64,000 bases of DNA, taken from a virus. The stretch spans positions 1 to 64,000 of IMG/VR virus record IMGVR_UViG_3300036979_001044, one strand, 5' to 3'. Within the stretch, counting starts at the first letter, position 1. Each line of letters begins with the position of its first letter. Positions 205 to 64,000 of this stretch are shown in pieces. The notes beneath the pieces were generated by a model, which worked only from the letters and a program-made list of their open reading frames with translations, was not told the DNA's origin and ran no database searches. The translations under genes were made by a program, and so were the position numbers.

Positions 205-844
205 GATGCCACACCCGCAAGATCTGACGCAGAGTTATTTCTGGAATAGCTCTTCCGCGCGCTGAAAAGCGCGTAGCTATTTCCAGAAAATTGCATCGAT
301 CCGTTTGCTGGCTCCAGCGTTTGAGTACCATGGTCAGTTCCTTTCCACGGATAGGCAATCCCGCACGGGAGAGGCGACGAGTGTAGCGCTGGTAGCAGCG
401 GAGACATAAACCTTGTGCATAGTGGACGCGGCTGAGCGATCCACACCAACTGCAATTGTACAACCGATGCCGTTTTCCCCAGTAATCTCCTCGCAACCAA
501 GCGATCAACTCATCAGCCTGATCTTCGCATATCAAAAACCTACCACGAGGAGAGGTTCTCTTCCATTTCTGCGCGCACGCTCGCATCGCCCGCCGAAAAT
601 GGCTCACCCCGTAGCCGGTCTCCCGAGAAAGTCGACGCAACGTATATACCCCGCGGGTCAACCCGCCCGCCCCATAGAGCCGGCGAGCTTTGTGGTAGAC
701 CGCCTGCCGAGTGCGCCCCTTGGGAGCCCCGGGCCAATCGCATCCATCGCCGGTGTGATTCTGGAACCAAGAAACCCCGTAAATACCCACCCCATGGAGC
801 AGCGCCTGTTCCTCCTGCTTGGTCCATCGCCGCCCGCGTCCCAT
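194..844 (-). CDS. putative DNA-binding protein: Myb/SANT-like, HTH and zinc-ribbon domains
   Basis: 216 aa; the start follows GAGGAGG with 8-nt spacing and abuts the TAG of the previous gene. Residues about 6-60 have the tryptophan spacing and K/R-rich third helix of a Myb/SANT domain (RRWTKQEEQALL at the start, GRTRQAVYHKARRL at the end). Residues about 65-115 look like a second helix-turn-helix. Residues about 130-155 carry two CxxC pairs, typical of a zinc ribbon. The rest is Arg-rich. Three DNA-binding modules suggest a regulator or a DNA-tethering factor. Family knowledge supports DNA binding only; the target is unknown. The DNA encoding its C-terminus contains an inverted pair of the genome-wide TTCCAGAA motif. 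Confidence 0.6.
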   Translation of the reverse strand: MGRGRRWTKQEEQALLHGVGIYGVSWFQNHTGDGCDWPGAPKGRTRQAVYHKARRLYGAGGLTRGVYTLRRLSRETGYGVSHFRRAMRACAQKWKRTSPRGRFLICEDQADELIAWLRGDYWGKRHRLYNCSWCGSLSRVHYAQGLCLRCYQRYTRRLSRAGLPIRGKELTMVLKRWSQQTDRCNFLEIATRFSARGRAIPEITLRQILRVWHHAG

Positions 845-1564
845 CTAGCAATCCTCCTCTTTATCCGCAGGCTTTTCTTCCGCGTCCCCAGCCGTTTTCT
901 TTCGTAGCTGCTCCCTCCGATGACGCAGAATGGTATCAACCGCCACCCGAGCCTCCTCCTCGGAGAGAGACGCGGCCACCCGCACCGTGTCAGTACGCAC
1001 CCCGCCATTGGATTCGTGAACCACTTCCTTGCTAACCTGCTTTTGCAACTCAGTCTCGTAATCGAGGAGTTTCAGATAAGCGGTCACCAGCCCCTCGTAG
1101 CTACCAACCCGCACCTGCTTGTCGCGGAGCTTTCCCAGAATATCGGCTCCCAGGGACTGCAACTCTTTGAGCGCGAAAAGCTGCTCGCGCATCATCCCCT
1201 GGCCGATCTTGGACTGAATCCGCTGCGAGATTCCGTCATAAAACTTCTGCCGCTTCTCTACCCAGCGATCCTCAGTGCTCCAACGGTTCATCGTATTGTG
1301 CGAAAGATCCTTGTAGAGCGGATCTTTGGCCATCTCTACAATCGTCAACCCCTCCCGGTTGGTGACATACTGAGTCTCAGCCAGCCGCCGCAGCCAAAGG
1401 TATCCAGGGATTTCCGTACCCGGCTCAGCGAGACCAACCGAAGATACCCGTACCGTCGTCGCAACACCGAACTGATTCACCACCTCCTCTTTGAGAGCCG
1501 GCCCCTTATGCTCGGCTTGAATCAGTTTTATCTTTTTCACTTTTTTGGGGTTGGCTACACCCAT
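845..1564 (-). CDS. hypothetical HTH protein, possibly terminase small subunit-like
   Basis: 239 aa, with an ATG 5 nt after GGAGGT. It has a basic N-terminus, then residues about 65-110 that read like a recognition region (LSHNTMNRWSTEDRWVEKR), as in phage proteins whose HTH is followed by a W-x-E-K-R segment, including some terminase small subunits. Long helices follow and the tail is Lys/Glu-rich. The large terminase that would support the small-subunit reading is not in the window, so the assignment is weak. It overlaps the 3' end of the upstream gene by 59 nt. Confidence 0.4.
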   Translation of the reverse strand: MGVANPKKVKKIKLIQAEHKGPALKEEVVNQFGVATTVRVSSVGLAEPGTEIPGYLWLRRLAETQYVTNREGLTIVEMAKDPLYKDLSHNTMNRWSTEDRWVEKRQKFYDGISQRIQSKIGQGMMREQLFALKELQSLGADILGKLRDKQVRVGSYEGLVTAYLKLLDYETELQKQVSKEVVHESNGGVRTDTVRVAASLSEEEARVAVDTILRHRREQLRKKTAGDAEEKPADKEEDC

Positions 1565-1832
1565 AACGTACCTCCAGGAGCCCGCGCAAACGCTCGATCA
1601 ATTCCACCTGCACCCCGCGCCAAACATCGCGCATCAACTGCTCAGTGTACACCTGCTCCAACGCGCCAGCGATCTCTCCCGCCAGCTTGAAGGTCGGAAC
1701 CACCCTCCCATCCTGAATCTCCAGTCGCGCCTCGATCTGCGCTAGACCGATTCCAGATTCTTTGGAAATGCGGAGTCGAGCCAGTTCTATCCCCTCCAGC
1801 AACACTCGTTCCACGTTGAGCAAAAAAATCAT
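1506..1832 (-). CDS. hypothetical helical protein, 108 aa
   Basis: The start codon overlaps the stop of the RuvC-like gene in an ATGA arrangement, so it is probably translated by coupling. The protein is mostly alternating hydrophobic and charged helix (MIFLLNVERVLLEGIELARL), with no Cys cluster or membrane span. The last ~20 residues are encoded in DNA shared with the next gene and are Lys/Asp-rich. I do not recognise the family. Confidence 0.5.
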   Translation of the reverse strand: MIFLLNVERVLLEGIELARLRISKESGIGLAQIEARLEIQDGRVVPTFKLAGEIAGALEQVYTEQLMRDVWRGVQVELIERLRGLLEVRYGCSQPQKSEKDKTDSSRA

Positions 1833-2497: not shown

Positions 2498-2864
2498 TCT
2501 TTCGGGCAAGGACTTCTCGGGTGACTTGGGCAAGGCCTGCCTCCGCGCGCTTGATCGTCTTCCGCGCTTCCGCGTTCGACATCTTTCGAGCGCGAAGGAA
2601 ATGGATGTTGTGGGTGACCAAAAGAACCGGGCGTTGAGTAGCCTCGTGCAGCCGCTTGCGCAGTGCCTCCGCCGCATTCTGACTGGTCGTGCTGGGTACG
2701 CTCACGATGACGTAATCATCCAGCGTTCCCTGGATAGCGTAACCCTCAGCGGGCAACAGGAGTGCGTCGAACGGGCTCACGCCGGGGGGACTCGACAAGG
2801 GCACCAGCTGGTATACCGTGTGGAGCTTGCGCTGAAGCTGGTTGGCTTTTTTGTGCAGTACCAT
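2229..2864 (-). CDS. hypothetical protein overlapping sbcC and ruvC
   Basis: Starts at an ATG just after AGAGGAGAG. Residues 1 to about 120 look like a real folded protein (hydrophobic strands such as DDYVIVSVPSTT and RPVLLVTHNI, then a basic helix), and its 5' end overlaps the sbcC 3' end by 119 nt. From about residue 135 the sequence becomes Gly/Asp/Pro-rich and is probably only the shadow of ruvC read in another frame. Either it really ends at 2229 with a long tail, or ribosomes shift into the ruvC frame. I cannot name the family. Confidence 0.5.
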   Translation of the reverse strand: MVLHKKANQLQRKLHTVYQLVPLSSPPGVSPFDALLLPAEGYAIQGTLDDYVIVSVPSTTSQNAAEALRKRLHEATQRPVLLVTHNIHFLRARKMSNAEARKTIKRAEAGLAQVTREVLARKNAGAESVEPQTPGLALAPAWGGDSIPENGGAGDPGAGCGDGVGPGVCLDGSGGDRSTGPEGIEPALVHGDDQHREGQEERTGEPAGDQR

Positions 2865-4764
2865 AACTCTCCTCTCTGATCGCACTGCGGCGATTCTTTT
2901 TCTCGATGATGATACGTTGATCGAAAAGACCCTGCATCTCAGCGTCGTGCTCGCTCACGTAAACCGCGCCTTTTTCCTTGGCCAGTTGCTCCAGCATCTC
3001 CACCATGGCCGTCTTACCTGATCGATCCAGGTGGCGGAATACCTCGTCCAGGATGAGCAGATCATAACGCTGCTTGGCCCGGCTGGAGATCAGATGAGAA
3101 AGGCCGAAGTCGATCGGAAAAGAGATACGCTGCTTCTCCCCGCCGCTGAGCGATCGGTAGTTGCGCTCGGTGATGGTGCCGTCCGGGTTCCAGCGGCTCA
3201 CCCGCACCTCGGGGGCATTGACCAGCTTCTTTCCCCGGGTCAACCGCTGCGCCTGGAACTGCACCCAGAATACCCCGCCGGTGAGTAGCCGCACCCAACG
3301 GTTGGCCGCCTGGGTCAACTCGTGCAGCCGGGCGTCCAGGATGTAGCTCTTGAGCCCCGAAGGGCCGAAGCCCTCTTTCCAGAATTCCAGAAAACGCCGG
3401 CGCTCGGTGATCTGCTCCAACTCCGCGCGAACGGTAGCCATGGATTGCTCCAGCTCCTGGATGCGCTGGGCCACCTGGTAGACTTGAGCGGCAAACGGAT
3501 TTGACTCTCCTGCCCGCGCCTGGATCGCCTTCCAGAGCTGCTCCAGATTGCGCTGCTCCTGTTCCACCGCCAACCACTGCCCCCCCAGCAAAGTGTACCG
3601 GGTCTGAGCGGTCTCGAAATGGCGGAGCACTTGCAGATGGCGTTGCGCGGCCTCGGCGCCAGCGATCGCCACCTTGGTCTCCTCGGCGTTGAAAGCCGCC
3701 TGCGCGGCCTGCACTAGCGCGGTTGCGTTCTTGTACGCCTCCTGCATAGCCAGCACATCCTGCTCCAGCGACTGGCGAGCAGCCTGGCGCAGGCTCTCCG
3801 GAACCGGTTGCCCGCACTGGTTGCACACCTCGCCAAGGGGTTTGTGCTTGTTCAACTTCTCCTGGGCATGCTGCAAACGGTAACGGGTGACCTCGTGGGC
3901 CTTCTGCGCCTCAGTCAGTTGATCCCGAAAAGCGGGCAGAACCCTGGGGGGAACAAGCGCCCCGTCGATCTCCTTGCGCAACCGTTCCAGCTCGGCCTTG
4001 GCCGCGGGCATGTGCTCGCGCAGATGTTGCTCCTGGCGTGCCCGTTCTGCCTCACGCGCCTGGTAGTCCATCGTCCATGAGTTTACTTCCAGGGTGCGCC
4101 GTTCCTCCCATACCCTGAGCTGAGCAGAAAAGTCCTGGGACTTGAGCCCATCCAACTCGCCTTGCTGGTAGTCCAACCGCGACGTGCGCTCCACCTCGCT
4201 CTCCTTGAGCCCGGCGAGCATCGTCTTGGTGGTTTCCAGAAATAGGTCGATCTCCTCGAACTGGAGAATGCGGGTCAAGGTCTGCATGCGCTCGCCGTCG
4301 GTCGAATCGGCGTAACGGATGAGATCATTCTGCCCGAAGTAGACCGCGGCGTGAAAGGTATCGCGATCCACCCCCAGCACCCGCTCGATACGCGCCTGGG
4401 TCTCCTTCACATCGAGCGCCTGGAGATCCTCCGTCCCAACCCAGAAGCGCAGGTTGGTCTCCTTGCCCCGCGACCGCTCGATCACCACCGGCTGGCCGGC
4501 GTCGTCGGTCAGCTCCACCCGCACCTGACAGGAACGACTCTCCTCGTTGACCACCGAATCCGCGTGATCCCCGCGAGGCACCCGGCCGAACAACCCCCAG
4601 TCCAGCGAATCAAACAGGCTGCTCTTGCCCGAACCGTTGGAGTCGCATCTCGGATCATCCAGATTCCGTCCGCAGACCAGCACCAACCCTTTTCTGGAAA
4701 AAGAGAAAACGTGATCTCCAAAAAAAGGCCCGTAATTATAAATGACTACCCGGTTTATCTTCAT
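2746..4764 (-). CDS. sbcC: SbcC/Rad50-like ATPase (T4 gp46-like)
   Basis: 672 aa, the size of T4 gp46-type subunits. Walker A is SNGSGKSS at residues 42-49. Long coiled-coil arms flank a Rad50 zinc hook CNQC at 314-317. The ABC signature SLSGGEKQR is at 538-546 and Walker B YDLLILDE at 567-574. With SbcD it forms an ATP-driven nuclease that resects DNA ends for recombination-dependent replication. Its ATG overlaps the stop of the small cysteine-rich gene (ATGA). The C-terminal ~50 residues beyond the usual domain end overlap the next gene and may be a poorly conserved tail. Confidence 0.93.
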   Translation of the reverse strand: MKINRVVIYNYGPFFGDHVFSFSRKGLVLVCGRNLDDPRCDSNGSGKSSLFDSLDWGLFGRVPRGDHADSVVNEESRSCQVRVELTDDAGQPVVIERSRGKETNLRFWVGTEDLQALDVKETQARIERVLGVDRDTFHAAVYFGQNDLIRYADSTDGERMQTLTRILQFEEIDLFLETTKTMLAGLKESEVERTSRLDYQQGELDGLKSQDFSAQLRVWEERRTLEVNSWTMDYQAREAERARQEQHLREHMPAAKAELERLRKEIDGALVPPRVLPAFRDQLTEAQKAHEVTRYRLQHAQEKLNKHKPLGEVCNQCGQPVPESLRQAARQSLEQDVLAMQEAYKNATALVQAAQAAFNAEETKVAIAGAEAAQRHLQVLRHFETAQTRYTLLGGQWLAVEQEQRNLEQLWKAIQARAGESNPFAAQVYQVAQRIQELEQSMATVRAELEQITERRRFLEFWKEGFGPSGLKSYILDARLHELTQAANRWVRLLTGGVFWVQFQAQRLTRGKKLVNAPEVRVSRWNPDGTITERNYRSLSGGEKQRISFPIDFGLSHLISSRAKQRYDLLILDEVFRHLDRSGKTAMVEMLEQLAKEKGAVYVSEHDAEMQGLFDQRIIIEKKNRRSAIREESYGTAQKSQPASAQAPHGIPAGALVESPRREPVRRTPVAR

Positions 4765-4922
4765 GACTCGTTCTCGCTTTCGTCTTCCTCATCAGAATCG
4801 CAGGTGTCGTCTTGGCAGTCCCCCTCACCGCACCCGGGGCAGACGTGCTCCGTGCAATGAGAACATGGGGGGTTGATGTGACAGGAGCAACCCCCGCAAC
4901 CGTTAGGACATTGCGAACTCAT
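4761..4922 (-). CDS. cysteine-rich acidic microprotein between sbcD and sbcC
   Basis: 53 aa. The ATG overlaps the sbcD stop as ATGA, and its own TGA overlaps the sbcC ATG as ATGA, so all three genes are translationally chained. It has ten cysteines in the first 41 residues (C5, C9, C12, C14, C20, C23, C28, C31, C36, C41), followed by an acidic tail (DSDEEDESENES). The cysteine spacing suggests binding of one or more Zn ions or another metal. Position implies a partner or modulator of the SbcCD complex, which is inference only. I know no named homolog. Confidence 0.7.
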   Translation of the reverse strand: MSSQCPNGCGGCSCHINPPCSHCTEHVCPGCGEGDCQDDTCDSDEEDESENES

Positions 4923-5938
4923 GGGTGCACCCCGCCAGTGATTTCCCGGTAGACGGAAAGCAACGCCTCTCGATCCATCTCCGGGGCCAGCTTTCCCACG
5001 TAGGCCCGGGCGTAGTCTTCCATCGAAGCCGTCGATGCCACCTCCAACCGTATCTCAGGATTCTGTTCCGCCGGCGCGACAATGCAACGCACCCCCAGCG
5101 CCTGTAGCTCGCGGGTGAGCGTCTCCGCGTCATAGCCAGCCCCCGACGCCACCCGGACTTCATCCCCCGCATGGATACCCAGATCCTGGATATACTCTTT
5201 GATGTGCGGAATTCCGACCGCAATCACCCCCATGGAGTCGAACTGGTGGTACCGCTTCCCCCAGACGGTATCGACCCAGAAGAACTGCTCGGTGATAGGA
5301 TTCCAACGACCATAGCCCTTGGCCTGCCCGGCCTCACTGGCATCTACCTGGTAGGGCGAACCGACGTAGATGATGTTGCCAAGCTGTTGCCGCTTGTGGA
5401 AGTGCCCACAGAGAACCAGCTTCCAGGGTTGGAACTGGCGAGGCTCCAGCCCGATCTCCCCGAGCACCCCAGGAGCCATCTCTGCCCCCTTGACCCCATG
5501 GTGCATCCAAAGCACCTGGGGTGGAGTAGCCGGCAGCCACGTAGGCTTACGGGCGATCAGCGCTTCCAGAATATCGACCGGGTCCTTTCGGTACGGAATC
5601 CACAGCCCATACTGATTCCAGGCCGGCTCAGTGATGATCTGGACCAGCGGATTGTCGGCGAAGACCTCCAGCGCATGCTCTCCGGCTCCGTTGATCTGAT
5701 CGTGATTCCCAGGAAGGAAGATCAAACTCACTTTCTCTGCCCGGAGTTTGCGCAACCAAGCGGCCACCCGGTTCTGGAGAGCCACTGGGATCTTGTAGCG
5801 GATGTGATAGAAATCACCCAAACAAGCGATCGTCCGATCGGAGTCGTCCTGGACCGCTTCCAGAATTCCCGGAAGGACCTGCTCGAATACCGTCTCCGCA
5901 GTGTCCTCGCACAGATGCAGATCAGAAAAGACGATCAT
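4919..5938 (-). CDS. sbcD: SbcD/Mre11-like nuclease (T4 gp47-like)
   Basis: 339 aa calcineurin-type metallophosphoesterase. Metal-binding motifs appear in order: SDLHL at residues 5-9, GDFYH at 41-45, GNHD at 77-80, MHHG at about 145-148 and GHFHK at 178-182. A C-terminal capping region follows. It is the nuclease subunit that pairs with the SbcC ATPase encoded two genes downstream. The start codon overlaps the stop of the zinc-ribbon gene (ATGA), and its stop overlaps the cysteine-rich gene. Confidence 0.93.
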   Translation of the reverse strand: MIVFSDLHLCEDTAETVFEQVLPGILEAVQDDSDRTIACLGDFYHIRYKIPVALQNRVAAWLRKLRAEKVSLIFLPGNHDQINGAGEHALEVFADNPLVQIITEPAWNQYGLWIPYRKDPVDILEALIARKPTWLPATPPQVLWMHHGVKGAEMAPGVLGEIGLEPRQFQPWKLVLCGHFHKRQQLGNIIYVGSPYQVDASEAGQAKGYGRWNPITEQFFWVDTVWGKRYHQFDSMGVIAVGIPHIKEYIQDLGIHAGDEVRVASGAGYDAETLTRELQALGVRCIVAPAEQNPEIRLEVASTASMEDYARAYVGKLAPEMDREALLSVYREITGGVHP

Positions 5939-6183
5939 GCTTTTCCCTTCCTGTAGAGCGGGGCGCTCTTGCCGAAGTGCCCAGCGACGTGACTGCCGTC
6001 GTTAAGAACCGCCTTCATCTGGTAGCGCTCTTTGCCGAACTTGGGTGCCGCGACGATCACCCGCACCGTGTTGCCCCCCAGGCAGTGCCCGCATAGTACC
6101 GTCGCCGTGTCCCGCTGCTCCAACGGCACCAGGTGCTCCGAGGTGAACCCGCAATCCCGGCACCGGTAATCATAAAGCGGCAT
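5935..6183 (-). CDS. FmdB-type zinc-ribbon protein
   Basis: 82 aa, good GAGGAGG ribosome-binding site. It begins with the typical FmdB sequence MPLYDYRCRDCG, with a second CxxC at residues 31-34. Many phages carry such a protein next to recombination or transcription genes. The role is not known; a regulatory or nucleic-acid-binding function is usual for the family. It is coupled to sbcD by an ATGA overlap. Confidence 0.75.
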   Translation of the reverse strand: MPLYDYRCRDCGFTSEHLVPLEQRDTATVLCGHCLGGNTVRVIVAAPKFGKERYQMKAVLNDGSHVAGHFGKSAPLYRKGKA

Positions 6184-6192
6184 CTGCCCTCC

Positions 6193-7317
6193 TCACCCGA
6201 GCGACTGATAGACCGAAATCAGCCGCGGAAATAGCGTCGGATCTTCCTGGCATTTCCCAGCTAATCCGGACCAGCCCTGAAACTTCATCTCTTTCCCATC
6301 CAAATTAATCGCCGCCCAGCTCCCCGAAACGCTAACCAACTTTGCGTCGGCCAGCCGCTGGTATACGCTCCAGACATTGTTGATCCCGACTCCAGAAAGA
6401 AGGGCCACCCGGGCCTCACCCCATGGATTCCCCAGCCGGTTCTTTACCAGCTTTACCCCGACTTCTCGCCCAATGATCGATCCATCGGAGCGCTTGATCC
6501 AGCCGGCGGGGAACAGCTGCAAACGAATCGACGATAGATGCCGAATGGCCTCACCGCCATAGGTCTCACGCTTCTTGCCGACCTTGTTGGCCTTGAAGCC
6601 CATCTGGATATTCTCGTACTCGTGATTGCAGACAACGAGAGCGATCTTGGTGTTGCCCAATTTCCCAGGCAGCTGTCGACAAGCCGTCCGCAGGATCTTC
6701 GCCGCCTGCGCAGGACGTTCATTCTTCTCTAACCGGCCCTCTAGCTCATCTCGGGTCGCAGTACCGCCTAGCGCATCCCAGCCAATAACGATAGGGGTAT
6801 CCGGTGACTTTGCTTTCCAGAACTCGACCGTTTCAATGATCTTGGTCAGGATATTCTCAATGTGCAGTTGATCCCGATTGAACTCCAGATACTGAAGCCG
6901 TTTAGGATCTACCCCAATAGCATGGGAATACCTCGAATCCCGCGCTCCCTCGGAGTCGATGAGAATGCCCAATCCATCCATCTTCTGAACTGAAGCAAAT
7001 AAATGATCGAGCAAGGTGGATTTGCCGATGTGCGGCGGACCGAAAATCTCGGTTGTTCGCCCACAGGGAATGCCCATCCCATTCAGCAACCGATCCAGCT
7101 CTACTGATTGCGTCGAGATATGCAAAGGCACGTTCGCGAGGCAACCCTCGTCGGCCAAAGTCAGTACCTCTACACAGCCGCTTTTACTGATCGCCTGCTC
7201 ATAGTCCGCTAGCACGTCCCGTTTGATCTTCGGCGCGCGGCTCTCAGCCCTGACTGGAGAGCGCACCGGAAATCTACGCGGCTTATTCCGCGGAACCTTG
7301 CCCGATCCTTTTGCCAC
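6193..7317 (-). CDS. recA: RecA-like recombinase
   Basis: About 374 aa. A basic N-terminal extension of ~30 residues precedes the RecA ATPase core: Walker A GPPHIGKST at about 93-101, then ILIDSEGARDSRYS, and a Walker B-like strand TPIVIGWDALGG. A later KLVKNRLGNPWGEA segment resembles the RecA DNA-binding L2 to C-terminal region. The start is probably the GTG at 7317, 5 nt after GGGAG; another in-frame GTG is at 7329. It catalyses strand exchange and works with the single-strand binding protein encoded immediately upstream. Confidence 0.88.
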   Translation of the reverse strand: MAKGSGKVPRNKPRRFPVRSPVRAESRAPKIKRDVLADYEQAISKSGCVEVLTLADEGCLANVPLHISTQSVELDRLLNGMGIPCGRTTEIFGPPHIGKSTLLDHLFASVQKMDGLGILIDSEGARDSRYSHAIGVDPKRLQYLEFNRDQLHIENILTKIIETVEFWKAKSPDTPIVIGWDALGGTATRDELEGRLEKNERPAQAAKILRTACRQLPGKLGNTKIALVVCNHEYENIQMGFKANKVGKKRETYGGEAIRHLSSIRLQLFPAGWIKRSDGSIIGREVGVKLVKNRLGNPWGEARVALLSGVGINNVWSVYQRLADAKLVSVSGSWAAINLDGKEMKFQGWSGLAGKCQEDPTLFPRLISVYQSLG

Positions 7318-7318
7318 A

Positions 7319-9085
7319 TCAACTCCCACGCAACTGCTGTGACAGTTCCGCTAGACTCGGAGGAGCCACCACCGGTGGTGCCGGAGGAGGCATTCCCGCA
7401 ACTGGCATGCTGCTACCCTGCATCTGCTGAGCAACTCCCGCGCACTGCTCCCGGAGGCCAGGCATGCACTCCTGGCAATAGCGGTCCTGGGGGGAGCACC
7501 GCCCGAAACAACGCTCCCGCCCACCAGGCAAAGCCATCCCAGGCGGCAGAGGGTAGGGGATAGCCCCCACTGTCTGCGCGTTAGCCATCTGCGAGAGAGG
7601 TGGCGGAGGAGGCACCCCCGGGTAACCCCCCGGGCCGGGTTGTGGGGCGTAAGGATTCCCAGCCGGAAGCGGTGCCGATTGCACTGGCGGAGGCATCGGC
7701 ATAGGCGGTGGAGCGCTCGCCGGTATCGACCCGGGAACCGGCGGTGGTGGCATTCCGAAAAATCCCGGGGGCGGGGGCGGAGGCGGAGGTTGCATTCCAG
7801 AAAATGCGGAGGGTGGAGGTTGCATTCCAGAAACTACCGGAGGCGGAGGTGCAAAATTCCCCGGAGGGGGCATCGCCTGTTGCGGGTAGAAATTGGGGGG
7901 CGCAGGAGCCTGCCCAGCACCAACTCCCTGGGCCCCGAATGTCTGCTGGTAGGGTTGAGCCATCATCGGCGGCGGCATGGCCACCGGAGCAGTTGGCGAT
8001 CCCACCGGATAGGGATTGGAATAGGGGTTTGGCCCCACCGGAGACATCGGAGCCCCAGGCATCGGTGCACCCATTGGCATCCCCGCCGCCTCACCCGGGA
8101 TCGGCAAACCAATCTCCTGGACAGCCCGCATCTGCTGCTCGGCGGTGTTCACCTTGTCCTCGGCGTCTAGATCCCACAACGCGCCGAGGGCCGGGTAGAA
8201 ATAAGGCGGGAGCGGCATGGGGTTCATGTCGACCACGCTGTACTCCACATCCATCTCGTTGGTCCCGGTCTTCCGCCGCTTGATCCGCATCGGCCGCCCG
8301 CTCATCGGGTGCACGATATGCAGGAGTCCGCGCTCGGCGATGAAATTCTGGATTGCCTCGTGAAGCATCGCCCCAGCTCCCAGAATGAACGGGCGCATTA
8401 CCCCACTGCGATCGATATGCCCCGTTGGGTTGTCGAGGACCGCCACATTGTAGAGATACTGCGTCCGGGTCTTCCCGTAGTCCTTGGCTCGCTTTTGCAT
8501 CATCATGTCGGACGAATTGATGGCCAAGTCCCGGGCTTTACAGATGAAACAACTCTCCGGTCCCGGGCAGTTCAGGCTCGATCCCCGCGGATGCTGAAAA
8601 GATCGCCAAAAATGCGACCGCACCCGCCGGTAGATGTTCCTCCCCGGCGCCCAAGCTGGTAGCAGATAAATCTGGAGAGCGACCTCATAACCAACCGGAA
8701 CATCATTGCCCCACTTCGGTTGACCCCCCGGGCCAGGAAACTTCACGTACTGCGCCCGAGATCCCCCACTCCTAGCCGCCTCCTCCTGGTACTCGCGGAA
8801 AGAAGCCCGGACCATCTCTTCATCGGGCATGTGAAAGGCCGGAACTCCTCCGGGCATCGTAAAAGTCGACGCCGGAGCCGCTAGAGGTGCGCCCCCGGGG
8901 TAGCCCGGAGGAGTGGCCGGGAACGGGGATGGAGCTGCCCCCGGGTACCCAGGAGCAACTGCCGACGGATAGCTGGGAGCCATCGCGGGGTAAGGCCCCG
9001 GTGCCGTAGGGGCAGGTACCGGAGCGTAACTAGGCCATTGAAAAGGCGCCGGGGGGTACCCGGCGGGATTCCCAAATTGATTCAT
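7319..9085 (-). CDS. gp32-like single-stranded DNA-binding protein with very long Pro-rich arms
   Basis: 588 aa, about twice T4 gp32. The ATG at 9085 follows GGAGGT with 7-nt spacing. Residues 1-85 are Pro/Ala/Tyr/Gly-rich. A folded core spans about 85-320 with a zinc-binding set H158, C173, C179 and C182 (CPGPESCFIC), as in gp32-type proteins. Residues about 335-535 are a long proline-rich region with runs of eight prolines. Near the C-terminus is a second cysteine cluster (RCFGRCSPQDRYCQEC). Assignment to ssDNA binding rests on the zinc motif and on sitting between recA and a UvsY-like gene. A matched promoter-like element lies just upstream. Confidence 0.7.
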   Translation of the reverse strand: MNQFGNPAGYPPAPFQWPSYAPVPAPTAPGPYPAMAPSYPSAVAPGYPGAAPSPFPATPPGYPGGAPLAAPASTFTMPGGVPAFHMPDEEMVRASFREYQEEAARSGGSRAQYVKFPGPGGQPKWGNDVPVGYEVALQIYLLPAWAPGRNIYRRVRSHFWRSFQHPRGSSLNCPGPESCFICKARDLAINSSDMMMQKRAKDYGKTRTQYLYNVAVLDNPTGHIDRSGVMRPFILGAGAMLHEAIQNFIAERGLLHIVHPMSGRPMRIKRRKTGTNEMDVEYSVVDMNPMPLPPYFYPALGALWDLDAEDKVNTAEQQMRAVQEIGLPIPGEAAGMPMGAPMPGAPMSPVGPNPYSNPYPVGSPTAPVAMPPPMMAQPYQQTFGAQGVGAGQAPAPPNFYPQQAMPPPGNFAPPPPVVSGMQPPPSAFSGMQPPPPPPPPGFFGMPPPPVPGSIPASAPPPMPMPPPVQSAPLPAGNPYAPQPGPGGYPGVPPPPPLSQMANAQTVGAIPYPLPPGMALPGGRERCFGRCSPQDRYCQECMPGLREQCAGVAQQMQGSSMPVAGMPPPAPPVVAPPSLAELSQQLRGS

Positions 9086-9102
9086 GTTTGCTACCTCCAT
9101 GG

Positions 9103-9134
9103 GTTAAATACTGGCGATACGACCAAATTGCTAA
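9103..9134 (-). promoter_or_regulatory. promoter-like element A upstream of the ssDNA-binding protein gene
   Basis: On the minus strand, TTAGCAA is followed after 11 nt by CGCCAGTATTTAAC, ending about 18 nt before the gene's start codon. An identical arrangement (same two blocks, same 11-nt spacing) occurs at 22132-22163. The blocks could be a -35 (TTAGCA) and a -10 (TATTTA) separated by 18 nt. The match between copies is seen in the sequence; promoter function is inferred. Confidence 0.5.
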
Positions 9135-9151
9135 GACACCTAGCGAAAAAC

Positions 9152-9670
9152 TCAAACCGAAAGACGAGGAGCCGCATCCTCCTGCGAGCGCACTACCGAT
9201 GTCTTCAGCATTTCCTTCTTCGCGCGAAAACCTTCCAGAATCGCCTGAGCCACGTTGTAGGCCTCCTCGGCCCGTTCCAGTTTCTTCTGGTGCACAAGAT
9301 ACAGCGGATCAGTCCGCATCTGCGCCTCCAGCAAGTACTGCGGCGGCTTCTTTTTCTCGTCGGCGGTACTGGCCAACGCCACGGTGAGCCCGTCTCTCCA
9401 GATCCGGTAGTCGCGTTCCTCGATCTCCCAGACCCGTTTTGCCTGAGCCGTCAACCGACCCCAGCGCATGATCTGGGCGGATACCACCTGAACCTGTTCC
9501 ACCAAACCCGCTTCCCAGATGACCAGCTCGTTCACGATTTTCCCATCAATAATGGGCCCCACTGGCGCCAAATCGCCGGTTCCAGTGACATCGACAATCA
9601 CGACCGGATTGATGAGAGCCAGCCGCTGCACGATTGCTTCAAGCGTCATGTGCTCTACTCGTTTGTTCAT
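9152..9670 (-). CDS. putative recombination mediator, UvsY-like
   Basis: 172 aa. After an N-terminal hydrophobic segment (VVIVDVTGTGDL), the protein is helical. A central block contains KKKPPQYLLEAQMRTDPLY, followed by a helix ending GFRAKKEMLKTS. That pattern (K-P-T/P, then a segment with D-P-x-Y, then K-x-x-x-L) is what I associate with UvsY-type mediators and their relatives. Its place directly before the ssDNA-binding protein and RecA genes fits. I cannot confirm it by alignment, so this is family-pattern inference. Confidence 0.42.
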   Translation of the reverse strand: MNKRVEHMTLEAIVQRLALINPVVIVDVTGTGDLAPVGPIIDGKIVNELVIWEAGLVEQVQVVSAQIMRWGRLTAQAKRVWEIEERDYRIWRDGLTVALASTADEKKKPPQYLLEAQMRTDPLYLVHQKKLERAEEAYNVAQAILEGFRAKKEMLKTSVVRSQEDAAPRLSV

Positions 9671-9671
9671 G

Positions 9672-10097
9672 CTAAGTCTCCCCTTCTGCCAGCAACGCCG
9701 ACTCTGATCCAGGCTCCAAAGCCTCTCGATAACGCCGTCGAGCGATATCCCATTCCGTAGTCAACACGGACAGAGCCTCTCGCTCATCAGCCTCAATCAC
9801 CTGGATGGCCTGGGCGATCTCCTGTTCTACCATCTGGCAGACCCGCGTTTTATCCGCGCTGATAACCCCCATCCGATCTGCGTACTCGCTGTCTAACTGC
9901 TTTCGCGATCGGGCTAGCCATTTCTCGGTGATCTCCTTCTGCTCCTGAAACTCGCGGTGTACCACTGCGATCTTGTCCGTTCCCTTTCGCATCGAAGCCC
10001 GCTTCCGCGCCTCGATATGATCAGTAATGACCAATCTTCGCTGGGTGTAGAGTTTCTCCGCCTCACGTAATTCTTGTTCCTCTGCGGTCAATGCCAT
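9672..10097 (-). CDS. hypothetical coiled-coil protein, 141 aa
   Basis: Almost entirely charged helix (many Glu, Arg, Gln), consistent with a long coiled coil. One cysteine, no membrane segment. ATG after GTAGGAG with 6-nt spacing. It lies between DNA polymerase and the UvsY-like gene, so a replication accessory role is possible but unproven. Confidence 0.55.
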   Translation of the reverse strand: MALTAEEQELREAEKLYTQRRLVITDHIEARKRASMRKGTDKIAVVHREFQEQKEITEKWLARSRKQLDSEYADRMGVISADKTRVCQMVEQEIAQAIQVIEADEREALSVLTTEWDIARRRYREALEPGSESALLAEGET

Positions 10098-10106
10098 GAC
10101 TGTCTC

Positions 10107-12881
10107 CTACGCTTTGGGCAACTTGGTTTTGTCCGACCAACTTCGCACCGTGTAATCACCATCCACTCGAATCGGGATAGGTGAAAATTCCGAATAATCC
10201 TCCATCAGGCGCTTGACCGCGATAGCGACCTCGGGAAGCACCTCTGCCGCACAATCGAGTTGGATCTCATCGTGCACGGTAGAGATGAGCTTGGCCGGAA
10301 GTGCGCGATCCTTGAGGTAGTGGGCAATCCGGACCAGGGACTCCTTGGTCAACTCGGCAGCCGTTCCCTGAATCAAGCTGGCGATGGCCTCTCGCTCAGC
10401 CTTCCCCCGTTCGAAATTATCAGAAATGTTCATCCCCTGTACTCGCCGAGGTCTACCAAACAAATTTTGAAAATAGCCCTTCTGCCGGCGGACCTGGGCC
10501 CAGAAAGTATCCCGAAAATCAACGATACCGTGGTACCGCTCAAAAAATTTGTTGAAATAAGACTCCGCTTCTTCCCTACTCACATGCACTTGGCGAGCGA
10601 ATCCAACCGGAGAAAGTCCGTAGCTGTTCGATACCACCCGCCCCTCTACCGTAAACCGATGCCGGGGCCCCGCGTTAATCAGATCGTAGACTTTCGCCTG
10701 CTGCGATTGAGCAAATTCTCCGAACGAGTCACCAGTCGCAGATTTTCTGGAGAGTAATCCCCATCGTTGTCGGTGCGATCGAAGTCCAATCCCCGGAAAT
10801 CCGATTCTGGAAACTTCCTCAAAGCCCACCGGACAAAATGCTCCCGTGACTTGAACTGAACCTTGATCCCCCGCCCCTTGTAGTTCTTCGAGGAAACGTG
10901 CGTATCCCGCTCGCAGCGCTGCACCATAGCATCGTAACGCCCACCCAAAGTATCTGCGCGCTTGTCGTGGTATTTCCCCTTCTGACAAGCGCAAAAAGAA
11001 TGACCAGCGCGAACATTGTCTACCAAAGACCATTTGATCGCCCCGCAACTCGCGCACCGCAACTCCACCACCCGACGCAGCCTCCCATCGCCCGCTCGAA
11101 TCTTTCCCACCTGCCCGGTCAACCGAAACGAACCGCACAGGCGTTTCGCCAATCGCGCCAACAGCAAGGCGTCGGGAATAAATTGCGGATGCCGCATCCC
11201 GCAAGGTTGCGGCACCCCCGTCTCGTAAATAGACGACATGATCTGGAGTTGCCGTAATCCCGTCATAAGTCAAAACCTCCTCAACACCACGGCACACCAA
11301 ACCATCATGCTTCACCCACTCAACCCCATCCCAAAGAAGATGATGATCTTGCACGCGCTCAATTGGGACCAACCCATCCTGCTGAGTCAACACCCGCTGC
11401 CCCTCCGAGATACAAAGCCCGAAATTAATCACTTTCGCCAGCCGCCGCATAGCTTTCTCAGCGGTCCCAAAAACTTCGATCGAAGTCCGTGTGTGGATAT
11501 CCTCGCCGTTCATGTACGCGGCAACCAAGATGGGATCTTTCGTGTAGTAAGCCAAAACGCGCAATTCGATCTGCGAATAATCAAAAAATAATCGCACCCA
11601 ACCCGGTCGCCCGACCACGTAGGATCTACGGATCGACCAGGGATCAGTACCGCCTTCCTCTAAACTTTTCCCCGAGTGTTTCTTGGCCCGATCGTCATCA
11701 TCTACCGGCTGATTCTGGAAGTTTGGGCTCTTGCAGCTGAGCCTTCCAGAAGTCGTTCCCATCTGCTGAAAATCAGGGTGCAGATAATTTCTGGAATCCA
11801 GTCGATCGAGAATTGATAGGGTATAGGTATTGGCCAGCTTTTCCGCCTCACGCCAGGCGAGGATGCGCTCGATGGCTGGGTGGACGTGGGCGAACTCGGC
11901 GAGTACCTCCTTGTCCACCGCGAACTGCTTAGCCGTACCCTTGGCTCCCCCACGAGTCATTTTATGGAGTCGACAACCGAGATCCTCCAGTAACAATTTC
12001 CGGATTACCGCATCAGAGCCAAGTTCGAGCTTTCTCCCTCCAAGCAATACGGTGATCTCCGCCTCCACCCGTTGCAGCTCCAACTGCAACCGCAACCGCA
12101 ACTTGGAGAGGTACTCGACATCAATGGCGATACCCTGCTCCTCCATGTCACAGATCACGTCCAGAAGATCCATCTCGGTCTTCCAGATTCTGGCGTAGCG
12201 CTGCGAGATAGAACGATGGGTCTGCTCGTAGAAAATATGGAGTCGATTGGTAAACTCTGTATCCCCGCAGGCATATTCCCCAAGTAGCCAGATAGGGACC
12301 TGGGAGTAGCCATACTGCGCTCGGTACGCCTCCACGCCCATCCGCTGCTGCTTGGCCAGGCGGTGGACCATCTCATCTACTCGCCCCTCGCCCACTTTGG
12401 CCTGGCTCTCCCCGAGATCCTCAACTGCCCGAGTCTTCAGCGCCACATACCGATTTTCGTCATAGAGCTTGGCTGCGATCATCGTATCGTACCAGGGAGC
12501 CGCGACCACCCAACCCTCCCGGTTCGCCATGTGCTTATCAAACTTCAGATGATGGCCGATCTTGAACTGAGGACCGGCGAGCAACTTGCGGATGTCCGGG
12601 GAGACCCGTTCGATATCGAGCTGGGCCTCCCCGGTGCAGTGCCGAAAGGGCGTGTAGAAATGATGTGTCTGCCCGTCGACCGTGCCAGCCAACGCCACCC
12701 CGCAGATCCGACTCTCTCTGAACCACTCCAACCCAGAAGTCTCGGTGTCGAATACCAGGATCTTGCTCGATTCCAGAAAACGGATCATTTGCTCGAATCG
12801 ATCCCCGGTCAAAACGATATGGTAATCGGGACGACGACGTTCCAGATCGTAGTCGTTAAATCCCGTCATCTGCACCGACAT
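10107..12881 (-). CDS. polA: family A DNA polymerase interrupted by an intein
   Basis: 924 codons. The 3'-5' exonuclease domain starts with FDTETSGLEW at about 44-53. Polymerase motif A is DYSQIELR (434-441). Motif B is split: RRLAKVINFGL, then a 263-residue intein (490-752), then SYGLSPVGFARQ. Motif C is HDE (870-872). After splicing, a ~661-aa enzyme lacking the 5' nuclease domain remains, as in T7-type and other phage replicative polymerases. The intact exteins on both sides suggest a working gene whose activity depends on protein splicing. Confidence 0.93.
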   Translation of the reverse strand: MSVQMTGFNDYDLERRRPDYHIVLTGDRFEQMIRFLESSKILVFDTETSGLEWFRESRICGVALAGTVDGQTHHFYTPFRHCTGEAQLDIERVSPDIRKLLAGPQFKIGHHLKFDKHMANREGWVVAAPWYDTMIAAKLYDENRYVALKTRAVEDLGESQAKVGEGRVDEMVHRLAKQQRMGVEAYRAQYGYSQVPIWLLGEYACGDTEFTNRLHIFYEQTHRSISQRYARIWKTEMDLLDVICDMEEQGIAIDVEYLSKLRLRLQLELQRVEAEITVLLGGRKLELGSDAVIRKLLLEDLGCRLHKMTRGGAKGTAKQFAVDKEVLAEFAHVHPAIERILAWREAEKLANTYTLSILDRLDSRNYLHPDFQQMGTTSGRLSCKSPNFQNQPVDDDDRAKKHSGKSLEEGGTDPWSIRRSYVVGRPGWVRLFFDYSQIELRVLAYYTKDPILVAAYMNGEDIHTRTSIEVFGTAEKAMRRLAKVINFGLCISEGQRVLTQQDGLVPIERVQDHHLLWDGVEWVKHDGLVCRGVEEVLTYDGITATPDHVVYLRDGGAATLRDAASAIYSRRLAVGAIGETPVRFVSVDRAGGKDSSGRWEAASGGGVAVRELRGDQMVFGRQCSRWSFFLRLSEGEIPRQARRYFGWALRCYGAALRAGYARFLEELQGAGDQGSVQVTGAFCPVGFEEVSRIGFPGIGLRSHRQRWGLLSRKSATGDSFGEFAQSQQAKVYDLINAGPRHRFTVEGRVVSNSYGLSPVGFARQVHVSREEAESYFNKFFERYHGIVDFRDTFWAQVRRQKGYFQNLFGRPRRVQGMNISDNFERGKAEREAIASLIQGTAAELTKESLVRIAHYLKDRALPAKLISTVHDEIQLDCAAEVLPEVAIAVKRLMEDYSEFSPIPIRVDGDYTVRSWSDKTKLPKA
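10626..11414 (-). mobile_element. intein in polymerase motif B, carrying an out-of-frame HNH gene
   Basis: 263 residues from Cys1 (TGT at 11412-11414) to Asn263 (AAC at 10626-10628), with Ser as +1 extein residue. Block A is CISEGQRVLTQQ. Block B is ATPDHVVYL with the T-x-x-H signature. Block F is KVYDLINAGPRHRFTVEGR. Block G ends VVSN, so the usual penultimate His is Ser; other inteins tolerate this. The insertion splits NFGL and SYGLS in the most conserved part of the polymerase, a typical intein site. The middle of the intein has no recognisable in-frame endonuclease; its DNA instead encodes one in another frame. Confidence 0.9.
10679..11266 (-). CDS. HNH homing endonuclease in an alternative frame inside the intein
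   Basis: 195 aa, read one base over from the polymerase frame. It has its own AGGAGG nine bases before the ATG, embedded in the intein codons for EEV. Cysteines at C71-C74 and C92-C94 form a likely zinc site. Residues 109-147 match the YDAMVQRC...NYKGRGI block of phage HNH enzymes. The HNH core is DFDRTDNDGDYSPENLRLVT at 161-180, followed by an N-rich basic end. Such enzymes make a site-specific cut that copies the surrounding element into intein-free alleles. Both frames remain open for 588 nt, which indicates overprinting under selection. Confidence 0.85.
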   Translation of the reverse strand: MTGLRQLQIMSSIYETGVPQPCGMRHPQFIPDALLLARLAKRLCGSFRLTGQVGKIRAGDGRLRRVVELRCASCGAIKWSLVDNVRAGHSFCACQKGKYHDKRADTLGGRYDAMVQRCERDTHVSSKNYKGRGIKVQFKSREHFVRWALRKFPESDFRGLDFDRTDNDGDYSPENLRLVTRSENLLNRSRRKSTI

Positions 12882-12890
12882 CCCGTACCC

Positions 12891-13136
12891 CTATCCCGGA
12901 AAAATAAGCGAAAGAGCTGGGAGAAGCGGGGAACCTCTATCGACCATCTGGGCCAGGAACTCCACCTCAGAAAAAGTCAGATTGACCGTTCCCCCGTCCT
13001 TGCTGGCCCCCTGAGAGCCAACCCGAACCCAACAATTGAGCCCTGGTATCCAGGCCACAATCTGCATGATCTGCGCCCCGCTGGGCAACACCGCCACCGG
13101 AGGAAGCCCCGGCCAGTTGACCTTGGTCAACTGCAT
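12891..13136 (-). CDS. small hypothetical protein, about 81 aa
   Basis: The protein (start MQLTKVNWPGLPP) has regular hydrophobic strands (PVAVLPSGAQIMQIVAW) and ends PALSLIFPG just before the polymerase start. The ATG at 13136 lacks a strong ribosome-binding site, and a GTG 18 nt upstream is an alternative. Reading further upstream runs into the shadow of the preceding gene, so I limit it to this part. Function unknown. Confidence 0.45.
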   Translation of the reverse strand: MQLTKVNWPGLPPVAVLPSGAQIMQIVAWIPGLNCWVRVGSQGASKDGGTVNLTFSEVEFLAQMVDRGSPLLPALSLIFPG

Positions 13137-13180
13137 CAAGGTCAGGTTCCACACCCACTGCGGGCCAACTGGTTGCGCCG

Positions 13181-14254
13181 TTAGGTGCGCCCCTTGCGTC
13201 CCCCGATGATCCAAGGGAGCCGAAAGAACCTCGGCGCGCTCCAGTTGAGAATTTGCCTCGTCCCCGTAGGCATACTCCCATCCGCCCTCTTCTGCTTCGC
13301 CCGCGGGATCGTTCCCACAATCTCCCGGACTACCGAGTACAGCGTCGGATAGAGCTGGCCCTGGAACTTGTAGCCCCCCTTCAGCACCACCACCTGAAGG
13401 GTTTTGCCCTGCCAAATACGGCTGAGCTTCATTCCGGGGCGCAACTGGGCTATGAGAGCACTGCGCTCCCGCTCCCGTTGCCACCGGCTGCGATTGTACC
13501 GTGCATGCCACCGTCGCACCTCCTCCTGCGCCTTCCGCTTGCGCGACTTGTTTTCTTCCTGTGCCCTGACAGGCTGCGCAGCAGCCCGTCCCTTTCTGGC
13601 CGCTACCCTGGCACTCTGTACAGTAGCGGCCAGCTTGGGGCGGAGTTTTATCGGCTTATCCGCCCCCTTCTTCTGTGCTCCCCGAGGGAGCTTGCCCTTG
13701 GGCTCCGCCTTTGCTTTGCCCCTTCCTTTCTTCTTCGCCATTCCTGCCACCTCCTCTAGCGCCGCCGCCGCAGGCCCGGTAATCGGGATCACCTCGGCGA
13801 GAGGCGGATCTACCAGCACCTCTTTGCTATCCGACTCATAGAACTGCTTCACCTCCGTAGGCGAAAGAGCCCGATCAATGATCCTTGAATAAGTACCCAC
13901 CGCCTGTTCTGCCGCCGGCTCAACGCCTAACCGCACCAGCTTCTTCGGATCAGTTTCCGGAACCAACGGCATCGTCTGCTCTGCCGGAGGAGGAATAACC
14001 GCCGGCTTGAGGAACGGGATAATCCCCGCCGATTTCTGGAACTCCAATGCGCGCTCGATAGCCGCCGTCTTGACAGCTGTCGCCTGGACGAGCTGCTCAA
14101 CCGTGACATCTTCGCCGAGCTTACGTTGCCAGTCGACCAGCACCCCGCTCGCGAAACGCATGAGGCAGTCGTCGATCACCCCGCACCCCTGATCCACGCA
14201 AAGAGACCCGGCAACCCCCTCCCATACCTGTCCGTAACATGCTGGCATTGGCAT
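13181..14254 (-). CDS. DUF2924-domain protein with N-terminal cysteine motif
   Basis: 357 aa; the ATG follows AAAGGA by 7 nt. The N-terminus has a CYG followed by C-x4-C-x5-C cluster. The middle (about 180-265) is Lys/Arg/Ala-rich and probably disordered. The C-terminal ~90 residues fit the DUF2924 pattern (LRPGMKLSRIWQGKTLQVVV, then GYKFQGQLYPTLYSVVREI and NWSAPRFF). That domain is common in phages and prophages with no fixed role. Located between the polymerase and the CobT-like gene. Confidence 0.6.
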   Translation of the reverse strand: MPMPACYGQVWEGVAGSLCVDQGCGVIDDCLMRFASGVLVDWQRKLGEDVTVEQLVQATAVKTAAIERALEFQKSAGIIPFLKPAVIPPPAEQTMPLVPETDPKKLVRLGVEPAAEQAVGTYSRIIDRALSPTEVKQFYESDSKEVLVDPPLAEVIPITGPAAAALEEVAGMAKKKGRGKAKAEPKGKLPRGAQKKGADKPIKLRPKLAATVQSARVAARKGRAAAQPVRAQEENKSRKRKAQEEVRRWHARYNRSRWQRERERSALIAQLRPGMKLSRIWQGKTLQVVVLKGGYKFQGQLYPTLYSVVREIVGTIPRAKQKRADGSMPTGTRQILNWSAPRFFRLPWIIGGRKGRT

Positions 14255-14327
14255 AACTGATTCCTTTCTGGATTTTTCTGGAGCACATACGAATTGGAAT
14301 AGCCCAAACCGTTCCAGAAATCCAGAC

Positions 14328-22131: not shown

Positions 22132-22163
22132 GTTAAATACTGGCGGAGAGGTTATTTTGCTAA
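22132..22163 (-). promoter_or_regulatory. promoter-like element B
   Basis: Same blocks and spacing as element A at 9103-9134: TTAGCAA, 11 nt, then CGCCAGTATTTAAC on the minus strand. The TTAGCAA part lies within the last codons of the UvsW-like helicase. It is followed by the candidate small RNA and terminator. Confidence 0.5.
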
Positions 22164-23633: not shown

Positions 23634-23848
23634 TAATCCCACTCCTCCGCGTAAGCCTCCAAGCCCTTCTCCAGAACCAGCCACTTGGGGGCCAGTACCG
23701 TGCTCGATTTCTCACGCACCGGCGCTTCCTCCAGTTGCTCCAGCTGACTCTTGGGAAACCACTCCTTGGTGCCCCCGCCGAAGTCCAGAAGCAACGCCAG
23801 GCCGCTGTCACTCTCGCGGACTACCCGGTCAAATGTCACTATCATCAT
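23633..23848 (-). CDS. small conserved-type phage protein, about 71 aa
   Basis: Two adjacent ATGs (23848, 23845) precede IVTFDRVVRESDSGLALLLD. The core pattern TKEWFPKSQLEQL followed later by APKWLVLEKGL is one I associate with short proteins found beside phage replication genes (W-L/F-P-K-S-Q ... P-x-W-L). Its stop codon overlaps the helicase start (TAGTG). The role is unknown. Confidence 0.55.
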   Translation of the reverse strand: MMIVTFDRVVRESDSGLALLLDFGGGTKEWFPKSQLEQLEEAPVREKSSTVLAPKWLVLEKGLEAYAEEWD

Positions 23849-62753: not shown

Positions 62754-62798
62754 AAAAGGCGCCGGAGAACGCGGAGGGTAGCCGGCACTACTCCGGCG
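62754..62798 (-). terminator. Rho-independent terminator after the capsid gene
   Basis: Minus strand CGCCGGAG (62798-62791) and CTCCGGCG (62767-62760) form an 8-bp stem, followed by CCTTTTCC (T-run 62757-62754). It lies 41 nt after the capsid stop codon, so it would let the capsid mRNA accumulate on its own. Confidence 0.6.
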
Positions 62799-62838
62799 TC
62801 TCTTCCAGAAATGCTGTTTGTTCAGTCAACTCAACCGC

Positions 62839-64000
62839 TTAGGCGGCTCCCACGTACCCCGTCGCCCGGCCGATGTTCCTGTAGAGAACATTCTTGCCAG
62901 GTGTGTAAAGTACGGGAGTTCCGTACAGTAGCTGCATCCAGCGGATGCTGGAGTCGACGGTCGCGAGCGGGATCTTGATCATCGGGGCTAACTGCTTGAA
63001 ACTCATCGACTCCAGGTTGAGCTGCCAGAGGAAGGCGCTCGTGCACCCGGGCAGGTTCTCGTTGAAGTCGTTGATGATGGTCTCGCCCGCGCCGGCGGCG
63101 TTGGGCACCCGGAGGATGAGTCGCTCGGTGCCGGCCGCGCCGTTCTTCGCCGTCCGATAGATCTCGTACCACCCGGTCGAAGCCGAGGAAGGGGTCAGAC
63201 CGAAAGTGACCTTGTCACCCGCCTGCACGGTCACCGCGGCGGAGAGGGTCAGCGGAGCCGAGCGGCCGAAGCGATTCACCGCGACGACCTTGTAGCGGTA
63301 GTCGCCGGCATCGTCGGAGGAGAACTTGCCCAGCGCCTCGGTCGGGGCAGTGGCGCCAATGGTGTTGCTCGGGATGCCCGGGCGCTTGGTCTGGTCGCCC
63401 AAGGCTGCGGCGTTGGGGCCACCACCGTCGGTGATGAACACGTCGGGTTCGAACAGCACATCACCGGCTGGGCTGGTGAAACCCTTGACATCGAGGCCGA
63501 TGAAGCCGCCCTGTTTCTGGAAAGTGTCGTGGCGTTCCTTGGGGAAGAACGTCTTGACCAAGTCGGCCTTGGTCTTGGGATTGAGGTAGAGGTGAGTTGG
63601 TGTTCCGTAGTTCGGCGCGTCCTGGACCGTGAGCGCGCCGTCGGTGAGCAGATCCTCGCTCAGCGGCAGACCGCGGAGGTCGATGATGTTGGTCGCCGGG
63701 CACAGATCCTTCATCAGCTTCTCCATGCCGTCGAACTGGAGGGCGGACAGGGAGCTGTCCCCGTAGAACAGCGCCCGCTCCATGATCCGGAGCAGGTGCA
63801 TGGTGCCGTTGACCGTTTCCTGGGCCACAACATTCCCATGGGCCGGTTTCACTAAGCTCATGACATGACTGACTTTTCTCGTCGTCCCGAGGTACTTCAC
63901 GATGTGGTACTTCCGGGTGTAGATCGCGTCGTCCTCTTCGGGGAGATCTCCTTCGGAAATGAAGCCAGCGTCGGGGTTCGCCCCGTACTGGCTCATTTCA
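62839..64000 (-). CDS. major capsid protein, 5' end outside the window
   Basis: At least 386 aa; the frame stays open to the window edge and the internal sequence SQYGANPDAGFISEGDLPEE looks like the E-loop region of HK97-fold capsids, so the true start is beyond 64000. It has the fold's hallmarks: ISEGDLPEE, then VSHVMSLVKPA and MERALFYGDSS (helix with F-Y-G-D). Residues about 215-310 of the visible part form an Ig/FN3-like insertion (YRYKVVAVNRFGRSAPLTLS). The C-terminus is SSIRWMQLLYGTPVLYTPG. Confidence 0.8.
   Translation of the reverse strand, partial: EMSQYGANPDAGFISEGDLPEEDDAIYTRKYHIVKYLGTTRKVSHVMSLVKPAHGNVVAQETVNGTMHLLRIMERALFYGDSSLSALQFDGMEKLMKDLCPATNIIDLRGLPLSEDLLTDGALTVQDAPNYGTPTHLYLNPKTKADLVKTFFPKERHDTFQKQGGFIGLDVKGFTSPAGDVLFEPDVFITDGGGPNAAALGDQTKRPGIPSNTIGATAPTEALGKFSSDDAGDYRYKVVAVNRFGRSAPLTLSAAVTVQAGDKVTFGLTPSSASTGWYEIYRTAKNGAAGTERLILRVPNAAGAGETIINDFNENLPGCTSAFLWQLNLESMSFKQLAPMIKIPLATVDSSIRWMQLLYGTPVLYTPGKNVLYRNIGRATGYVGAA

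Follow-up and report, generated by a model that had tools for sequence, protein, structure and literature searches.

The stretch analyzed here (the window) is bases 1 to 64,000 of a 96,810-base IMG/VR virus record (IMGVR_UViG_3300036979_001044). It belongs to a contractile-tailed phage, in which we identified genes for the tail sheath, baseplate, capsid, portal, and terminase. The phage is distantly related to SPO1-type Herelleviridae, with 37% identity in the major capsid protein and at most 45% in the portal. The mapped genes lie on the minus strand, and a replication and recombination module falls within the first 25 kb of the window, where there was no nucleotide-level match among phage-collection records. 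The subject of this report is a short word, TTCCAGAA (complement TTCTGGAA), that is dispersed across the window from position 239 to 63522 and is the most frequent of all 8-mers there. An earlier note on this DNA had put it at about 85 copies in two orientations, roughly one every 0.75 kb. The exact count is 85, with 50 copies on the plus strand and 35 on the minus strand; the first octamer starts at 239 and the last at 63515. The whole record holds 141 copies (75 and 66 in the two orientations) and only 6 of the reversed pattern. The word thus occurs at 1.46 per kb in the record and makes up about 1.2% (1.17%) of the genome; on average, copies lie 0.67 kb apart across the record and 0.75 kb apart within the window.

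Base composition predicts 1.29 copies in the window, in line with the one or two that had been estimated, and simulation under a dinucleotide Markov model predicts 2.5, with a maximum of 6 over 30 runs. For the whole record, 5.4 copies were expected under a trinucleotide model compared with the 141 observed, an enrichment of about 26-fold. When synonymous codons were shuffled in 61 window genes, with the proteins and codon usage held fixed, 11.7 ± 2.7 copies were expected (maximum of 20 in 300 shuffles) and 76 were observed. This shuffle is conservative because it retains codons created by the word itself. The enrichment therefore survives both of the models on which the earlier note had staked its claim, codon usage (76 versus 11.7) and dinucleotides (85 versus 2.5). 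The word was also found, as had been described, in all three reading frames and on both coding-strand orientations.

Refinement gave a polar consensus that extends beyond the octamer, TTCCAGAAA(A/T)nG, with a nearly invariant TCCAGA. It can be summarized as (T)TCCAGA(A)(A), a footprint of about 10 bp in which the A/T flanks are graded. The octamer is nonpalindromic, differing from its own complement. Other TTCNNGAA forms were not enriched, with 0 to 3 occurrences each, and on that ground a generic TTCNNGAA site was rejected. The TCCAGA core alone occurs 314 times in the genome, and a looser profile recovers 255 to 320 sites per genome where a simulated genome yields 33 to 86 at the same thresholds. 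Replication priming had been suggested as one role for the word. DnaG-type primases read about three bases, however, and priming is unlikely because the footprint, at about 10 bp around an invariant core of 6 bp, exceeds such recognition.

The form of the core also bears on whether the word is the target of a DNA methyltransferase or some other restriction/modification mark. Type III and BREX-like systems have nonpalindromic targets comparable in form to the 6-bp core. Furthermore, one word-bearing fragment from a relative, G044 (the L208 record), which uses the dialect TTTCCAGACT, encodes a methyltransferase-like protein with a DPAY motif at its end (69394 to 70143). However, the footprint exceeds a typical methylase site, the A/T flanks are graded, and a regular-expression scan of six-frame open reading frames found no convincing methyltransferase catalytic motif in this genome or in the relatives G003, G015, and G016. 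Similarly, HIP1 (GCGATCGC) of cyanobacteria is an octamer that is highly iterated through coding DNA, as the phage word is, but HIP1 is palindromic and tied to methylation, while the phage word is polar and a cognate methylase was not found by that scan. Taken with these points, a modification mark is very unlikely.

To ask what is conserved, we compared the phage with G003, a relative of 109 kb; where the DNA of the two can be aligned, about 71% of nucleotides are identical. Sixty of 100 alignable sites are unchanged in G003, compared with 9.6% of all 8-mers, 12.2% of composition-matched 8-mers, and 9.3% of flanking 8-mers, and the elevated conservation is confined to about −1 to +8 around the word. 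Where amino acids are identical, codons internal to the word were kept in 127 of 153 cases (83%); 65 would be expected from the same codons elsewhere, and 49% were kept outside words. Because word codons are kept beyond matched codons, it is the DNA word and not the protein that is selected. Selection thus maintains the word as DNA, as the earlier note had argued, and a protein or codon origin was rejected by the use of all frames, the codon shuffle, and this synonymous conservation. A mutational or gene-conversion bias could in principle make such a word in the absence of any function, as very-short-patch repair does with CCWGG, and a function for the word is itself inferred. Yet such a bias would have to account for the retention of 60% of sites against about 10% of 8-mers, and its action would need to be specific to the word across some 10 bp, to be polar, and to shift the flanks from one relative to another. 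We regard it as highly improbable.

The sites are arranged without evident order. Over the whole record, intersite gaps are Poisson distributed, as random placement would give. The two orientations are in balance (75 versus 66, P = 0.5) with no positional trend, and adjacent sites have no favored relative orientation. Even spacing and strand bias were therefore rejected, as neither is present. The sites are mostly intragenic, with 12 of 141 outside conserved genes compared with 10.4 expected, and no closeness to start codons was detected among the 141. A fixed positional role as a promoter, terminator, or ribosome site was rejected, since the location analysis shows no such preference. The closest pair consists of two copies back to back (TTCCAGAATTCCAGAA; 3377 to 3392, plus strand). 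The largest word-free gap (33264 to 38572; 5.3 kb, P about 0.05) is centered on three tail-fiber/LamG-type genes (34006 to 37631), and the G003 orthologues of these genes likewise lack words. Possibly these are host-range genes that are exchanged too often to accumulate words.

This arrangement distinguishes the word from the stoperators of Cluster A mycobacteriophages, which are repressor sites that halt transcription. Stoperators are asymmetric, dispersed at about 20 to 30 per genome, and diverge with the phage (PMC9283540, PMC6550527). They lie mostly in one orientation that follows transcription and are found at promoters or in short intergenic gaps (PMC6550527, PMC9283540). The phage word resembles them in being short, phage owned, asymmetric, dispersed, and divergent among related phages, and the stoperator repressor reads its sites through two DNA-binding domains. 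In contrast to about 26 sites that are mainly in one orientation and intergenic or near promoters, however, there are here at least 141 sites (about 300 by looser counts), in both orientations (75 and 66) on a genome with one-way, minus-strand genes, and they are intragenic, with those 12 sites outside conserved genes. The classical stoperator form is refuted by site orientation and location, and we consider stoperator-type sites of any kind extremely improbable.

To follow the word among relatives, we used a portal-based search that retrieved 80 viral relatives, 39 to 94% identical. Members of the phage's own clade (L154 to L157, L161, and G001 to G004) have this word at densities of about 1.2 per kb and above, and more distant relatives share the core TCCAG(A) with altered flanks. 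Specifically, G009 has 40 copies of TCCAGAAA (2.5 expected), and G015 uses the dialect RTCCAGMAAWT, with 87 copies of TCCAGAAA (9 expected) and 52 of TCCAGCAA (7 expected). The G016 dialect includes 50 copies of TCCAGCAA (3.6 expected). In G044 there are 23 copies of TTTCCAGA and 29 of TCCAGACT, where 0.5 and 1.3 are expected, and G025 has 33 copies of TCCAGACT in 14 kb (0.6 expected). The dialect of G010 is WTTCCAGA, and G021 carries TTACAGAGA, a possible one-base variant of the word. No such word was found in G013, G031, G038, and further relatives; relatives found through the DNA polymerase were too distant and lacked it. Although G015 has a dense dialect of its own, only 2 of 86 sites from the present phage are kept there, which is the background level. 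Positions have thus moved completely while density has been upheld, which indicates that density, and not any given site, is kept in the long term.

Two other observations came from these portal relatives. In L178 (20.6 kb), the portal-tree sister of the word-bearing L175, TCCAGA seems depleted, with 3 occurrences compared with 9.5 expected by base composition. A separate portal-relative clade, L214, L216, and L219 (G047, G048, and G049; records of 59 to 108 kb), has its own two-strand word, AGGATAATG, with AGGATAAT present in 20 to 26 copies where 0.1 to 0.2 are expected. Thirteen of 25 aligned copies are kept between G047 and G049 (background, 27%). Copies of this word cluster, and in G047 many minus-strand copies directly precede start codons, so that AGGATAATG may in part be a ribosome-binding or promoter element.

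We also looked for the word outside this group. When the portal was aligned against genome contigs, the only hit was a distant Nitrosomonas locus (32%), and the phylum around it, Pseudomonadota, was scanned for the word. Among 398 Pseudomonadota genomes there was no enriched genome: the 9-mer TTCCAGAAA never exceeded about 0.045 per kb, compared with about 1.08 in the phage, although the host may belong to another phylum. The second refuting condition of the earlier note, equal enrichment in the host, was thus examined in one phylum, where the density was not seen. Among the matches listed, about 200 viral contigs had two neighboring copies, and clear dispersed two-strand enrichment was seen only in this clade; the remaining contigs were mostly AT-rich chance matches or one-strand protein repeats. 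To gauge rarity, 154 other viral contigs, a nonrandom set mostly chosen via word or portal searches, were surveyed in stretches of 10 kb. In that set the top dispersed two-strand 8-mer had a median z score of 4.9 and exceeded 10 in only three contigs, one of them a family relative (G025/L186), while this z score came to 6.6 to 18.1 per 10 kb in the present genome. Nothing comparable was seen within the 50 kb examined of SPO1, phiT5282EW, and MTATph1. Literature searches with the octamer and its extensions as whole words returned unrelated papers only, and those on overrepresented phage words returned only Chi and stoperator work. Two phage contigs that were retrieved solely through the word-pair scan each show a dispersed word peculiar to them: TAACCTTA in L082 (IMGVR_UViG_3300049198_000021, 176.5 kb; 12 versus 0.22 expected over at most 10 kb) and AGCCTAAC in L087 (IMGVR_UViG_3300027320_000006, 92 kb; 8 versus 0.15).

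These distributions bear on whether the word is the host's own Chi, or a Chi-like stop signal for a host nuclease of the AddAB/RecBCD type. Under this explanation the phage would accumulate the word so that its broken DNA is repaired instead of degraded, and the dialects would mirror different hosts. The Chi of E. coli, GCTGGTGG, contains CTGG, as does TCTGGA. The word is polar, two-ended breaks would need both orientations, and no RecBCD/AddAB-type gene was identified among the phage proteins scanned. Moreover, phages that lack RecBCD inhibitors are known to accumulate host Chi (PMC3784561). In lambdoid phages, Chi has a density of 0.2 per kb, a 2- to 3-fold overrepresentation, and certain phages have it concentrated between the origin and the packaging site (PMC3784561). 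The present word is similarly short, polar, overrepresented, lineage specific, and near recombination genes, but it is enriched about tenfold more strongly than lambdoid Chi, and it is uniform along the genome. The phage has recombination proteins of its own (RecA-like, SbcCD, and RuvC-like), the sampled Pseudomonadota do not approach its word density, and dispersed enrichment among the listed viral matches is confined to one clade. A host Chi is thus rather unlikely.

The recombination genes on which the earlier note had built were located on the minus strand: a RuvC-like Holliday-junction resolvase (1829 to 2677), SbcC-like (2746 to 4764) and SbcD-like (4919 to 5938) nuclease subunits, and a UvsX/RecA-like recombinase (6193 to 7329). 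The same strand encodes a single-strand-binding-protein-like protein (7319 to 9100; a weak match to phrog_1192, E = 3e-7), a DNA polymerase I-like polymerase (10107 to 12881), a DNA primase (18436 to 19455), a DnaB-like replicative helicase (19452 to 20912), and a superfamily 2 (ResIII-type) helicase (22152 to 23684). Elsewhere, L001 encodes two large minus-strand proteins. One (11436 to 15764; 1,442 amino acids) joins an intein/Hint region, an inorganic-pyrophosphatase-like domain, and a poly(A) polymerase head domain; the other (2684 to 10741; 2,685 amino acids) has no Pfam match and is found in several relatives.

The near-complete word-bearing genomes, namely the present one, G003, G015, and G016, have a replication module in common that includes the proteins encoded at 194 to 844, 845 to 1564, 1829 to 2677, and 9152 to 9670. 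G038, whose structural genes are homologous, has almost nothing of the module, and it has neither the word nor the 194 to 844 protein. In G047, there are homologues of SbcCD, the RecA-like protein, polymerase I, primase, and DnaB, but not the word or those four proteins. The Chi-like site that the earlier note had tied to SbcCD, RecA, and the resolvase therefore fares unevenly. The module does accompany the word in four genomes and both are missing from G038, although the role is itself inferred. Against a simple version of the proposal speak G047, which has SbcCD and RecA and no word, the lack of an identified Chi reader among the phage proteins scanned, and the lack of an orientation or position bias, although a phage with two-ended breaks may need no such bias.

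The best candidate for the reader is the 216-amino-acid protein encoded at 194 to 844 (minus strand). It has a Myb/SANT-like N terminus and a zinc-ribbon-like Cys4 motif (CxxC...CxxC), both spotted by eye, together with a MerR/excisionase-like winged helix. In a structural model, the winged-helix part resembles the DNA-binding domains of MerR, RacA, and pSK1 Par (Foldseek E values of 0.2 or worse). Among viral contigs, the protein was found outside this phage only in G003, G015, and G016, all of which bear the word. Since these four genomes share the entire module, the association nominates the protein as a candidate and is not proof. The second choice is encoded at 845 to 1564 (minus strand), a protein that weakly resembles terminase small subunits and DNA-binding proteins (phrog_5110, E = 0.004; phrog_4151, E = 0.009).

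The same two proteins would also suit a different function, in which the word is the binding site of a phage DNA-organizing protein (nucleoid-like, packaging, or segregation) and not a recombination signal. Many random, two-strand, intragenic sites fit a protein that coats or bridges DNA, and the partial resemblance of the 194 to 844 protein to RacA and pSK1 Par, with the weakly TerS-like 845 to 1564 protein, points in the same direction. However, nucleoid proteins are usually loose in their specificity, while the 6-bp core is nearly invariant, and a scan of part of the proteome turned up no HU/IHF-like gene. An organizing role is rather unlikely.

In its behavior, the word is closest to the DNA uptake sequence (DUS) of Neisseriaceae, a polar word of about 10 bp that is read by ComP. 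Both occupy about 1% of the genome, are kept by density, and combine a short essential core and graded flanks with dialects that differ by a few bases among relatives (compared with the Neisseriaceae dialects in PMC3630211). The two differ in that DUS belong to the chromosomes of naturally transformable bacteria that have a competence receptor, while here the word is a different one, its carrier is a tailed phage, and there is no link to transformation. By analogy, the word may act like Chi or like a DNA-uptake word; we do not claim that it belongs to either class, and a Chi-like role would be one among several candidate functions.

We propose, with about even confidence, that this phage group uses TTCCAGAAA throughout its genomes as a recognition word peculiar to the lineage, read by a likely phage-encoded protein. 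A sequence-specific protein would read the asymmetric word, and its gene most likely belongs to the phage's replication and recombination module. Density is upheld while positions turn over and flanks drift into dialects around the core TCCAG(A). With many interchangeable sites on both strands, a DNA end, a fork, or a packaged stretch would meet one within about a kilobase. The word might then act as a label by which the phage's DNA is recognized as its own in recombination-dependent replication, in the protection of ends, or in DNA organization.

Several results weigh against this proposal. The reader may be host encoded, since the bacterial genomes sampled were all Pseudomonadota. On the portal tree the word has a patchy distribution, phages with and without it alternating, and a host-driven word would give the same pattern. 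At least five changes of the word label are forced by well-supported branches, in a tree with 18 labeled rows, many of them short fragments, and one of which (L219) carries a different weak word (GTCCAGGT). Among the word-bearing relatives, the majority are fragments lying outside the replication module, and the link to the 194 to 844 protein therefore rests on four genomes. Finally, the structural model of that protein, built from four sequences, is of moderate quality (predicted local distance difference test score of 72, predicted template modeling score of 0.41), and no fold match was significant.

More tentatively, and at somewhat less than even confidence, the phage protein and the word may co-evolve into dialects as a self-address system of one tailed-phage family, through which recombination, replication, or packaging would separate the phage's own DNA from that of its host or of rival phages. 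Genome-wide iterated words with dialects have precedents in the DUS of transformable bacteria and in Chi, and the dispersed words that phages own are known mainly as stoperators. A word that is selected, uniform, present on both strands, and drifting in dialect within one phage family, at about 1% of a tailed-phage genome, would extend such systems to a new setting. It provides a direct way into the question of how a phage might distinguish its own DNA from that of its host, or organize recombination-dependent replication, and further cases could be found by counting words.

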